Source of the DNA: a virus
Direction: 5' to 3' (one strand)
DNA length: 24,845 nucleotides
Virus record (IMG/VR): IMGVR_UViG_3300011261_000088
Location: 1 to 24,845 of that record
Shown: positions 3,074 through 22,380 of the stretch, one piece after another
How positions within the stretch are numbered: the stretch's first letter is position 1
Layout: each line of letters starts with the position of its first letter
Program-made: the position numbers and the translations under genes
The notes under the pieces: model-generated
Databases searched by the model: none
What the model saw: only the letters and a program-made list of their open reading frames with translations
What the model was told of the DNA's origin: nothing

Positions 3074-3475
3074 TCATAGACTCAACTTATAATAGTAAGC
3101 TCTCCACGGACCTCCAGATCCTACTTGCTCAATCCTTTCAAATAGGGAACCCGCAGGAATGGAAGCTAGTGCTAACTCAGAGGTCGCGTAGGTGGCAGTC
3201 TGTTTAACTGTACCAAATACAGCCCTAACTGCAGAGGGTAAAACAAATTTAGTATCCGCTGCTCCTGTGATTACAGTAGTGTTACTATAATTACTTACAT
3301 TACCCAGCCCGACAGTCACTTTGCTTATCGCAAGAAAATCTGTATTAAGGTTTTTTAAGACCAGTTTTATATTTCTAAGATGGTCATCAGTAGTGGATAA
3401 ACCATCAGAAACTAAAGGCCAGTCAGCGTTCAAGTCTGCAGGTGTGCCCGCAGGAGCTATTGTTTCTAAGCCCAT
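3074..3475 (-). CDS. Small tail-fibre-type protein, 133 aa
   Basis: The N-terminal half contains 'W(P)LVSDGLSTTDDHLRNIK' (residues 19-36). The Gly-x3-Asp-Asp-His-Ile/Leu-Arg-x2-Lys element is a recurring module in phage tail-fibre proteins, where it precedes a helix leading to the trimeric shaft. Here the protein ends after about 100 further residues in a beta-rich stretch, so it is a short fibre or fibre-adaptor rather than a full receptor-binding fibre. The start codon shares one base with the stop of the adaptor gene (TAATG), with a GGGAGA SD sequence 8 nt upstream, which indicates coupled translation. Fibre family likely; specific role inferred. Confidence 0.65.
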   Translation of the reverse strand: MGLETIAPAGTPADLNADWPLVSDGLSTTDDHLRNIKLVLKNLNTDFLAISKVTVGLGNVSNYSNTTVITGAADTKFVLPSAVRAVFGTVKQTATYATSELALASIPAGSLFERIEQVGSGGPWRAYYYKLSL

Positions 3476-18989: not shown

Positions 18990-19547
18990 TCATAGGTCGA
19001 ACAACCCGCTCAAGTCAATATCGTCAGCTTCCATTTGCTTAGTCTTAAGCGCTTTATATTCCTCGCTATACTTCGCTTTCAATGCGGCGCGTTCTTCTTT
19101 CTGCATCCCTTTCAGCTTAACCGTCACAGCGATTACATCAACTTGGCTCTTCTTATCCCTACCCGCATTAATAACATCGGTCACGACTTGTGCCAATATA
19201 GCATCAACCTGCAAGCCACCGCCCGCACGTTCTACCGTCTTCTTCCATTCGCCCCCAAGGAACATATCATAGGTACTTTGATACGCGCCAACACGCGCCT
19301 CAACCGCTTCCAAGCTTCCCTTTTTCAATCCTAAGTCACTTTCCATATAACCAACGGTCAGTCCGCTATTCCTATCTTGTACCAACTTCAACAACCCATA
19401 GCTTAAAACCTGCTCCTTTATATCATCCGGTAGCTTGTCCGCATCCATCTTAAACTTACTTACTTCCTTCCATTCTTTGCCATCTTCGCTAACCACAGTT
19501 TCAAGATTAACAACTGTAGCGTTTTGACTAAAATTCAACTTATACAT
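18990..19547 (-). CDS. Unknown protein, paralogue A, 185 aa
   Basis: Start at 19547 (Met-Tyr-Lys-Leu-Asn-Phe) is supported by an AAGG SD and by alignment with paralogue B, which begins Met-Ser-Lys-Leu-Asn-Tyr. The longer frame would need a TTG start. Shared blocks are the N-terminus, 'YGLLKLVQDRNSG' (residues 50-62), and the extreme C-terminus 'IDLSGLF'. The middle is helical and Lys/Glu-rich. No membrane segment or catalytic motif is visible. The gene is monocistronic, with hairpin and terminator downstream and a pair of 16-nt repeats upstream. As one of the first leftward genes after the divergence zone it may be early-expressed. Confidence 0.75.
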   Translation of the reverse strand: MYKLNFSQNATVVNLETVVSEDGKEWKEVSKFKMDADKLPDDIKEQVLSYGLLKLVQDRNSGLTVGYMESDLGLKKGSLEAVEARVGAYQSTYDMFLGGEWKKTVERAGGGLQVDAILAQVVTDVINAGRDKKSQVDVIAVTVKLKGMQKEERAALKAKYSEEYKALKTKQMEADDIDLSGLFDL

Positions 19548-19611
19548 AATGTGATACCTTTTCAAATTGGCCCTGCGTTATTGCTTGACCTTCTTACAGC
19601 TTACACCATAT

Positions 19612-19803: not shown

Positions 19804-20370
19804 CTACGCTTTAACTTCTTCGCTTTCGCCTGCACTAGCAAACAGACCAGCCAAATCAACGCCTTCACCGCCATCTTCCTTCTGCTGAGCCTTAGCCAAT
19901 TCCGCCTTGTAAATCGCTCTAAAGGCGGCAACACTTGGATGACCAGCCATCGCCTTACGCTGTTCCTTAGTCATACTCTCCAGCTTAGCGGCTACTTGTT
20001 CTGTAGTAACCGTAACCTTGGTACTGGCTAAATAACGCTTAACTGCTTCAACCAAATCAGCACCAATCTTAGTCTTACGTTCGCCTGCCGCTTTAACTGA
20101 ACGCCAGATACCTGCTTTCAACTGCTCCATAAGTTCGCCCATCTTTTCGATACGCTCCTTAGGGTCTTTAATACCAGAAGTTCTATCCTGCAGCAATGAA
20201 CTCAAGCCATACGCAGCTAAGCTACGTTGATTGTCGCCCTCGCCAAAGCTTTCAGGCAAACCGTCAAGCGAAAAGTCCTGGCTTACGTCAGTTACTACTT
20301 CATCACCATCTTTATGAGTTAATGCTACTGTTACTGCTGCTACTGCTACTGTGTAATTTAATTTTGACAT
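19804..20370 (-). CDS. Unknown protein, paralogue B, 188 aa
   Basis: Start at 20370 has GAGAGGG 6 nt upstream; the frame stays open to 20463 without an SD, and the start matches that of paralogue A. Conserved blocks: Met-x-Lys-Leu-Asn-Tyr, 'YGLSSLLQDRTSG' (54-66) and C-terminal 'VDLAGLF' (171-177) followed by a 10-residue tail. The centre is helical with many Lys/Glu, including 'TKEQRKAMAGHP', similar to 'QKEERAALKAKY' in paralogue A. It is the first leftward gene after the candidate origin, with its own promoter and terminator, so it is probably early. No family recognised. Confidence 0.78.
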   Translation of the reverse strand: MSKLNYTVAVAAVTVALTHKDGDEVVTDVSQDFSLDGLPESFGEGDNQRSLAAYGLSSLLQDRTSGIKDPKERIEKMGELMEQLKAGIWRSVKAAGERKTKIGADLVEAVKRYLASTKVTVTTEQVAAKLESMTKEQRKAMAGHPSVAAFRAIYKAELAKAQQKEDGGEGVDLAGLFASAGESEEVKA

Positions 20371-20688: not shown

Positions 20689-20911
20689 TCGAAAAACCCT
20701 ATTCTCACCCTATTTACTCGTTATTTTCCCCTATCGGGTGCTTTTTTAAACTTTGGTAGGGGGGGGGTGCGGGGGGGGTGGGTGATTTTTATTTATATTA
20801 TAATAATATATATTAAGTACTACCCCCCCCCATACCCCCCCACCCATTTTCGATTTTTACCACCGATAGGGGAATATAATGGACAAATAGGGTGGTTATA
20901 GGGTTTTTCGA
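20689..20911. other. Origin-like 223-bp inverted repeat with helically phased CCCTAT boxes
   Basis: Three blocks on the left, TCGAAAAACCCTAT (20689-20702), CACCCTATTT (20706-20715) and TTCCCCTATCGG (20726-20737), have exact reverse complements at 20898-20911, 20885-20894 and 20863-20874, all centred on 20800 with no gaps. CCCTAT boxes start at 20697, 20708 and 20729, so spacings are 11 and 21 bp. G tracts (20759-20778) face C tracts (20823-20841), with an AT-only core (20785-20818) between. It sits where transcription diverges. Layout fits an initiator-bound replication origin or a symmetric operator. Confidence 0.8.
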
Positions 20912-20960: not shown

Positions 20961-20989
20961 TTTACAGCCCAAACCCCCGCTATTATAAT
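20961..20989 (+). promoter_or_regulatory. Strong candidate early promoter for the rightward genes
   Basis: TTTACA (20961-20966, 5 of 6), a 17-nt spacer and TATAAT (20984-20989, perfect) predict a start near 20996, leaving a 36-nt C/A-rich leader before the first rightward gene. Confidence 0.72.
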
Positions 20990-21031: not shown

Positions 21032-21535
21032 GTGAGCAATACTAAAACAAACCCATCTGTCGGGGATGTCATATTTGTTGGCATAGAAAAAGCTGTGTTT
21101 AAAGCAACAAGCCTGTCTAGCGAAGCTGCTATATTTTCTGGCCTCGGTCAACCCACAAGTAAGCTGTCTAAGCTCGACAAACACTTTTACAAGAGAGTGT
21201 CCGACACCGGAGCAACACATTACAACAAAAGAACTCGCTTCTTATTCCGGTATCTGATAAATTGCTGGTACGTATGTGCAGATAATGGAGTATGGTATAA
21301 ATGGAAGGGGGATGCATGTCCAAACCTGGAATCTATACCGCCCCTCGCCACCATACACACTCTTGCTGGTTTTGAAGGTGTTCAAGTTTTACCGGATGAT
21401 TGTATAAAGTTCTGTGATATGATTATCAAGTTCACAGATACAGTATCACCTAGACCTAAACATCGTGTTGCTTTTGACGTAACTAACGAAGAACGTCAGT
21501 ATATTACCGATTATCTGGAGAAGAAAAATGGCTAA
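21032..21535 (+). CDS. First rightward early gene, unknown, 167 aa
   Basis: GTG start at 21032 with AAGGA 8 nt upstream and a consensus promoter 70 nt before it. The sequence suggests an alpha/beta protein: 'PSVGDVIFVGIEKAVFKATS' at the start, 'FLFRYLINCWYVCADNGVWY' near 70-89 and a Lys/Glu-rich C-terminus ending Lys-Asn-Gly. Four Cys and several Trp are present but no metal motif is obvious. First genes after an early promoter in phages are often host-takeover proteins, which is inference. The end overlaps the next gene by 8 nt (ATGGCTAA). Confidence 0.72.
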   Translation: MSNTKTNPSVGDVIFVGIEKAVFKATSLSSEAAIFSGLGQPTSKLSKLDKHFYKRVSDTGATHYNKRTRFLFRYLINCWYVCADNGVWYKWKGDACPNLESIPPLATIHTLAGFEGVQVLPDDCIKFCDMIIKFTDTVSPRPKHRVAFDVTNEERQYITDYLEKKNG

Positions 21536-21722
21536 GCAATTAATTATATCCGTAGCGATAGTAGAGATGGGTGTAGATGGTAGTATATCAGAACCTGAAT
21601 ACCTTGAAATGGTCAGCATAGACCCTAGAGAGGCAACCACCCAAATTAGAGATGCCAATATATGGGTGTCTGAGCAAATAGTATCGGCAGCTTTGTCTGT
21701 CCTGGAGAATGGAAATGGCTAG
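21528..21722 (+). CDS. Small unknown protein, 64 aa
   Basis: Begins inside the previous gene (ATGGCTAA overlap) with GGAG 7 nt upstream. The protein is a compact alpha/beta sequence ('KQLIISVAIVEMGVDGSISEP', then 'ATTQIRDANIWVSEQIVSAALSVL'). Ends Asn-Gly, overlapping the next start by 8 nt (ATGGCTAG). No family recognised. Confidence 0.7.
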   Translation: MAKQLIISVAIVEMGVDGSISEPEYLEMVSIDPREATTQIRDANIWVSEQIVSAALSVLENGNG

Positions 21723-22380
21723 AAGTACAAATGCTGTCAAATATAATCCACAGTGGACTGCATTATTGCAGTATTTTGACAAAAGATACCACACGCCTGG
21801 CGCTGACGGCTTGCCCGACCGCGTGAAAATGCCCTGCAACGACTACAAACACGCAAAGTCGCTACAGCTGGAGTTTAACTGCTTCCTGAAAGCAGTACGC
21901 GAGACCGCCAAGTTGACATCTGGCGTAGACACCATGCAGCGTTCCATCTACAGTAAGCTGACGGCGACCGCGATGTCCATGAAGGCCCAGGTTTTATGTA
22001 GCGGCCGCGACTTCTGGCTAGAAAAGCTGAAAGAGACCGGCAAACTGGTAGACGCTGATAAAAAGGCGGCGGAAGTTGCGAAAGTTAAGGAGAAGTTAGG
22101 TACTCTTAAGTCTCAATTAGAGATATACGACTGTCGTGAGACCAGCGAAGGTGAAATTGTTGAAGGTTTCACTGGCATTCTCGCAGGATTGGGCAACCAA
22201 CTGCTACAGCACGAAATGGACAACCGAACCGAGGAAGAAAAGGATGAAGCTGAAGCCCTCATAAATGCCCTGGGCGACGGTAAGAAGGTTTCCGGTCACA
22301 ATAACGGCCTGGAATTGAAGCAGGTGCTTAGCGAAGAAGAGCTGGCCGCCGGTGTCGATCTTTCCTTGTTGGAGGATTAG
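21715..22380 (+). CDS. Unknown helical protein with shared C-terminal motif, 221 aa
   Basis: Start at 21715 (Met-Ala-Arg-Ser) is preferred over an ATG two codons upstream, because it has GGAG 7 nt before it and gives the same 8-nt overlap (ATGGCTAG) used elsewhere. The protein is Lys/Glu-rich and mainly helical, with a coiled-coil-like middle ('KKAAEVAKVKEKLGTLKSQLE', about 118-138). It ends 'AGVDLSLLED', matching the C-terminal 'VDLAGLF' and 'IDLSGLF' of the two leftward paralogues. Local codons are more GC-rich than in its neighbours, hinting at a different origin. Function unknown. Confidence 0.72.
   Translation: MARSTNAVKYNPQWTALLQYFDKRYHTPGADGLPDRVKMPCNDYKHAKSLQLEFNCFLKAVRETAKLTSGVDTMQRSIYSKLTATAMSMKAQVLCSGRDFWLEKLKETGKLVDADKKAAEVAKVKEKLGTLKSQLEIYDCRETSEGEIVEGFTGILAGLGNQLLQHEMDNRTEEEKDEAEALINALGDGKKVSGHNNGLELKQVLSEEELAAGVDLSLLED

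Follow-up and report, generated by a model that had tools for sequence, protein, structure and literature searches.

The 24.8-kb IMG/VR record analysed here (the window, that is the whole stretch) is a fragment of a podovirus akin to Vibrio phage VS-ABTNL-3, and it carries a long inverted repeat whose arms are arrays of iterons spaced by one helical turn around an A/T-only core. The design of this element, not its sequence, is kept across the clade of the window. Judged from the sequences, the element is very probably a conserved symmetric protein-binding site and, as we suggest with less assurance, it probably serves as the internal bidirectional replication origin of the phage.

The inverted repeat of the window

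The leftward genes of the window code for structural and lysis proteins (SU10-type capsid and portal, terminase), and the rightward genes are the start of the early/replication arm including a UvrD-type helicase. The closest cultured relative is VS-ABTNL-3 (L045, capsid 66%); Microcystis phage Mel-JY34 stands further off, and PaP2 (Fredfastierviridae) much further still.

The original prediction described three blocks, TCGAAAAACCCTAT (14 nt), CACCCTATTT (10 nt) and TTCCCCTATCGG (12 nt), which are exact reverse complements in a single register with the axis at 20800, CCCTAT boxes phased at 0, +11 and +32 in both arms, and a core of A and T only. All of this could be confirmed (Table 1). It had overlooked a degenerate box, with which each arm consists of four iterons at 0, 11, 22, and 32, the third being degenerate, and also a further inverted repeat, G-rich in one half and C-rich in the other, that lies inside the arms and outside the core. 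Across the full 223 bp, pairing is found at 70 of 112 positions, which is 8.7 SD above the mean and the best of 49,242 centres in the window. With a local score of +1 for a match and −1.5 for a mismatch the repeat reaches 29, whereas 100 dinucleotide shuffles yielded at most 15.5, and no other spaced inverted repeat of the window scores as high. The CCCTAT motif as such is not enriched (20 occurrences across the whole window, 16.9 expected). The consensus rightward promoter that had been noted beside the repeat is present, but shuffled sequences yield about two such sites per region.

Table 1. Features of the inverted repeat and of the neighbouring genes in the window.
Feature	Position	Strand	Remarks
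Left arm	20689..20737	+	four ~11-bp iterons AACCCTATTCT / CACCCTATTTA / CTCGTTATTTT / CCCCTATCGG; top inverted repeat of the window
Right arm	20863..20911	-	left-arm iterons in inverted order; 41/49 complementary to left arm, gapless
CCCTAT box 1	20697..20702	+	offset 0
CCCTAT box 2	20708..20713	+	offset +11
Degenerate box CGTTAT	20719..20724	+	offset +22; read from the sequence
CCCTAT box	20729..20734	+	offset +32
CCCTAT box, mirrored	20866..20871	-	
Degenerate box CATTAT, mirrored	20876..20881	-	read from the sequence
CCCTAT box, mirrored	20887..20892	-	
CCCTAT box, mirrored	20898..20903	-	
G-rich half, inner inverted repeat	20754..20777	+	G9 and G8 runs
C-rich half, inner inverted repeat	20823..20846	+	C9 and C7 runs
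A/T-only core at dyad	20785..20816	.	32 bp; probable unwinding element, cores of relatives compared
Sigma-70-like promoter TTTACA-17-TATAAT, rightward	20961..20989	+	outside the element; 1 found, 2.0 expected by shuffles
Family Y gene (phrog_28928)	19804..20370	-	first leftward gene; model pLDDT 88.8, no PDB fold match
Second family Y paralogue	18990..19565	-	
First rightward gene	21032..21535	+	167 aa; no family match
Weak family X member	21709..22380	+	candidate iteron-binding protein; replication side; profile E 0.014; not in Pfam/PHROGs

A DNA search of the element region against phage records gave zero matches, and no relatives were found via the window proteins adjoining the element. The CCCTAT triple pattern had seven matches in IMG/VR, none of which resembled the element on inspection, and a pattern specific to the arms of the window matched no other contig. 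An unrelated contig matched by the CCCTAT pattern (L042) has GTCACCCTATC direct repeats together with a strong inverted repeat (score 20.5) around position 3203.

Conservation of the design across the clade

By a terminase profile search 80 related IMG/VR loci were collected. Most of those that extend far enough upstream have the top inverted repeat of their contig 2–8 kb upstream of TerL, and altogether about 36 distinct genomes have two mirrored arms, nearly always at this distance. Thirty genomes with a pairwise TerL identity below 90% contain the element inside the fetched locus and score 17–43.5, except L114 with 13.0; six further genomes were added on reading the contig ends (L071, L089, L091, L097, L111, L124). 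The shuffles of the window together with 116 shuffles of the relatives did not exceed 15.5, and the second-best repeat elsewhere in the same contigs almost always scores 10–16, with a maximum of 17.5 for a short-loop hairpin in L122. With a score threshold picked after the data had been seen, about 24 of 29 in-clade genomes with at least 4 kb upstream of TerL are positive, the window included. Five in-clade contigs with enough sequence are below the threshold (L113, L120, L121, L131, L146).

In a second collection, the GTDB MAGs, the element is present in three of six TerL-positive phage contigs having some upstream sequence. These three (L166, L167, L168) have it 2.4–3.2 kb upstream of TerL with poly-A cores; the contigs L164 and L165 comprise only ~3 kb of upstream sequence.

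Among the cultured phages, the best inverted repeat of the 43.6-kb VS-ABTNL-3 genome lies in the matching intergenic gap and is unrelated in sequence to that of the window. In VS-ABTNL-3 the element spans L045 40665–40790, and in Mel-JY34 it lies near record position 44210. The intergenic elements of both phages are like the element of the window in kind and map position, but they are annotated in neither record, and in both records (MF497422.1, PP438425.1) the element as well as families X and Y (see below) are unannotated or 'hypothetical'. A comparable repeat is absent at the expected place in PaP2, Kuura, CRP-810, and the Desulfofustis phage. The expectation that the boxes are conserved in related phages thus has to be restated: the literal CCCTAT is not kept beyond this phage, but the mirrored one-turn iteron design is. 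A description of the element was not found in the open-access literature, most subscription journals being outside the coverage of the search. The noncoding region of the Atoyac phage (PMC7857530) is a different, T7-like case.

Anatomy of the element in the relatives

In the relatives the arms are 22–86 nt long and the interior 50–260 nt, mostly 60–200 nt. At the dyad there is an A/T tract, usually a run of 7–26 A on the terminase-sense strand; on this strand the homopolymer is A in 23 and T in five of 28 genomes, so that the symmetry of the element is incomplete. In 28 of 36 genomes the A or T homopolymer at the dyad stands out within its own contig (p ≤ 0.01). An AT content of at least 80% is reached by the 25-bp core in 23 of 30 genomes, compared to 0.5% of random 25-mers from the same contigs. 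G/C homopolymers beside the core are exceptional for the contig (p ≤ 0.05) in 14 of 36 genomes; the longest G/C homopolymer therefore marks the element in many genomes and is not a universal mark.

The helical phasing is not restricted to the window. When the left arms of 29 genomes are pooled, their self-match peaks at lag 10 (z 7.4) and lag 11 (z 3.9) and is depleted at lags 5–6. The clearest iterons are those of L071 (L150), with TACCCCGATAC TACCCCGATAT TACCCCGATTG in one arm and their mirror in the other. Iteron sequences vary from genome to genome, and within one genome both arms agree. This agreement is expected if a single diverging protein reads both arms, although gene conversion between the arms is an alternative cause. 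In L004 (2086–2250) more copies of the iteron unit (CCATACCGCCAAATCACGCC) are found past the right arm, toward the family Y gene.

The only direct test of box conservation among close relatives in this study is the pair L073 and L080, whose TerL proteins are 99% identical. The right-arm iterons GGGACGCACTA are intact in both, while the interior of L080 (1–150) has diverged from that of L073 (5240–5460) and aligns better when inverted (255 versus 202). As the contig of L080 begins inside the interior, the apparent inversion could be real or an artefact of assembly at the contig end.

Neighbouring genes and candidate binding proteins

The repeat had been placed exactly where leftward and rightward genes part. 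This is the case for the window and VS-ABTNL-3 (L045), but in many relatives the element does not lie between divergent transcription units. Profile-confirmed family Y genes that lie on the TerL side are oriented toward the element in L108, L147, L099, L133, L114, L096, L098, L078, L136, and others, and in many genomes the neighbours on both sides read in one direction, where the calls for open reading frames other than profile-confirmed Y come from a mechanical choice of the longest frame. Given such neighbours, divergent promoters do not explain the symmetry. A minimum of the GC skew at the element had been proposed as a check. In several of the genomes for which the skew was computed, its minima track the switch of the gene strand and not the element. 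As it follows the direction of transcription, GC skew neither supports nor places an origin.

Two protein families accompany the element. Of 30 genomes, 28 encode family Y (phrog_28928) within about 2.5 kb of the element, for the most part on its TerL side. Family X was found by clustering the replication-side genes; it is encoded at most 1.1 kb from the left arm in 12 of 30 genomes and further left in six more, and it is located beside the element in L046, L071, L075, L089, L091, and L119 once contig ends are considered. The family X protein has a basic N-terminal domain around R41/Y45, an acidic tail and the motif 'PFxSxxxAxxLRxRLYgFrkAL', and it is absent from Pfam and PHROGs. Although the AlphaFold models are confident (pLDDT 88.8 for Y, 86.4 for X), a comparison of both models to the PDB revealed no significant fold match; the weak structural matches of family X are winged-helix repressors with E about 1, which is not evidence. 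Among the neighbouring proteins examined, no fold of a known initiator or DNA-binding protein was found, and X and Y are candidates by position only. Family Y is disfavoured as the iteron binder, being acidic (median pI 5.6) with a fold that matches nothing.

The family Y proteins, including both paralogues of the window, often end with an acidic tail and a short hydrophobic end, for example DLSGLFDL, which is reminiscent of SSB-type C-termini. The product of the weak family X gene of the window has a family Y-like ending, VDLSLLED.

Replication origin or operator

An origin or a symmetric master operator had been considered the best explanation of the repeat. A symmetric, phased, AT-cored site is indeed found clade-wide and these two readings lead, with the origin ahead, but some of the arguments originally given fail, as described above. 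As in iteron-type origins, a regularly spaced iteron array and an adjacent AT-rich region are found. Bidirectional initiation needs a symmetric, AT-cored and iteron-flanked site, and the element fits this need.

We suggest that a phage-encoded initiator, for which the small family X proteins are the candidate, would bind each iteron array along a single face of the helix, that the two mirror-image complexes would strain and then melt the A-tract core, and that one replisome might then be loaded per direction, consisting of a family-A DNA polymerase and a DUF3987 primase as in the Vibrio relative. Binding of the initiator may additionally regulate the flanking early genes. In VS-ABTNL-3 the replication arm codes for a family-A polymerase, a DUF3987 primase, and a Sak4-like protein. 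The scanned proteins of this arm had no match to a recognised initiator family, which leaves room for an unfamiliar one.

As an operator or activator, the element would be bound at both iteron arrays by a phage regulator that switches leftward and rightward transcription in the opposite or the same sense. The divergent gene blocks of the window and VS-ABTNL-3 would suit such a function, as would the good rightward promoter that begins 50 bp past the right arm and the family X genes that directly follow the left arm in 12 of 30 genomes; direct arrays with one-turn spacing also suit repressors. On the contrary, the mirrored arms persist in many relatives in which the TerL-side gene reads toward the element and nothing diverges, the dyad has a long homopolymer core that does not resemble a promoter, and in one near relative the interior is inverted. 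Thus, we give the operator a small but real chance, and favour the origin on the grounds of the non-divergent flanks in many relatives and of the one inverted interior with intact iterons.

A role in partition or maintenance is improbable. Such a parC-like site, with two clusters of ~11-bp repeats around a spacer, would allow the phage to persist as an episome, and the 10–11-bp repeats of the element do resemble the clustered repeats of ParR/RHH centromeres. In parC, however, the clusters are direct and not mirrored. Episomal persistence has been reported for the Fredfastierviridae member Shea (PMC13348215), but PaP2, a near relative of Shea, is without a strong element. Moreover, a partition gene was not seen, as about 107 neighbouring proteins gave no match to ParM, ParR, or RHH proteins.

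Even less probable is a packaging or terminus site read by the small terminase. TerS/TerL are always within a few kb of the element, and the contigs L075, L119, L111, L116, and L129 end at or near it. Packaging is however directional and the site is mirrored, the contigs end at the poly-A core as assembly breaks would, and some contigs have end overlaps of k-mer length (127 or 141 nt; 141 nt in L071) like circular assemblies. A terminus was therefore rejected as the cause of the contig ends in favour of assembly breaks. As several contigs break at or beside the poly-A core, the element may systematically fragment or truncate the assemblies of these phages.

Hardly credible, finally, is an invertible switch with the arms as recombination sites that flip the interior, as the inverted interior of L080 and the varying orientation of the A-run might suggest, because no recombinase was matched among the scanned neighbouring proteins, the arms match imperfectly, their boxes being conserved and their spacers drifting, the orientation of the A-run is biased 23:5, and the L080 contig begins in the interior, where an artefact is possible.

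Parallels to known origins

In the haloarchaeal oriC1 an AT-rich unwinding region is flanked by inverted ORBs with G-strings, which enclose a G-rich inverted repeat, and the box sequences of haloarchaeal origins vary with the adjoining initiator gene (PMC4010727). The element is alike in its mirrored boxes around an AT core, in the G-rich inverted repeat just inside them and in the diversity of its boxes. A further likeness may be the adjoining initiator gene, which for the element is only a candidate. It differs in belonging to a bacteriophage, in its short one-turn iterons instead of ORBs and in its A-tract core, and no Orc1/Cdc6 protein, as expected for a haloarchaeal-type origin, was matched when the neighbouring proteins were scanned against Pfam and PHROGs. 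In OriS and OriL of herpes simplex virus, OBP boxes are likewise inverted around an AT-rich spacer (PMC12543377), but the virus is unrelated, the sequences and numbers of the boxes differ, the interior of the element is longer and no OBP-like helicase was identified as binder. Both parallels are a likeness of design, not membership.

The iterons of phage lambda form one array beside an AT region, inside gene O. Lambda-type origins (e.g., PMC7466680) share with the element the phage iterons adjoining an AT-rich region, whereas the element has two mirrored, intergenic arrays centred on its core. Plasmid parC centromeres likewise hold ~11-bp repeats in two groups with a spacer between, but these groups are direct and not mirrored, and par genes are not seen here. 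Compared to known iteron-type origins, new would be the mirrored arms and an initiator that appears to match no known family. It is tempting, but for now quite tentative, to place the element in a class of viral replicators not described before. In this view a whole podovirus clade would use mirrored iteron origins whose boxes re-code rapidly, family X would be an undescribed initiator family that co-evolves with these boxes, and the design would be convergent on archaeal oriC and herpes OriS. If the element is an origin, it would be a new type of phage replicator with a probably unfamiliar initiator, and it would show plainly how a site and the protein presumed to read it diverge in concert under an unchanged geometry.

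To our knowledge, the replication origins of most non-model phages are unknown. They do not align and hence are beyond the reach of sequence comparison. In this clade the symmetry is kept rather than the sequence, so that a simple scan for mirrored arms finds the site in about 36 genomes, and in two cultured phages the scan provides a precise, testable locus.
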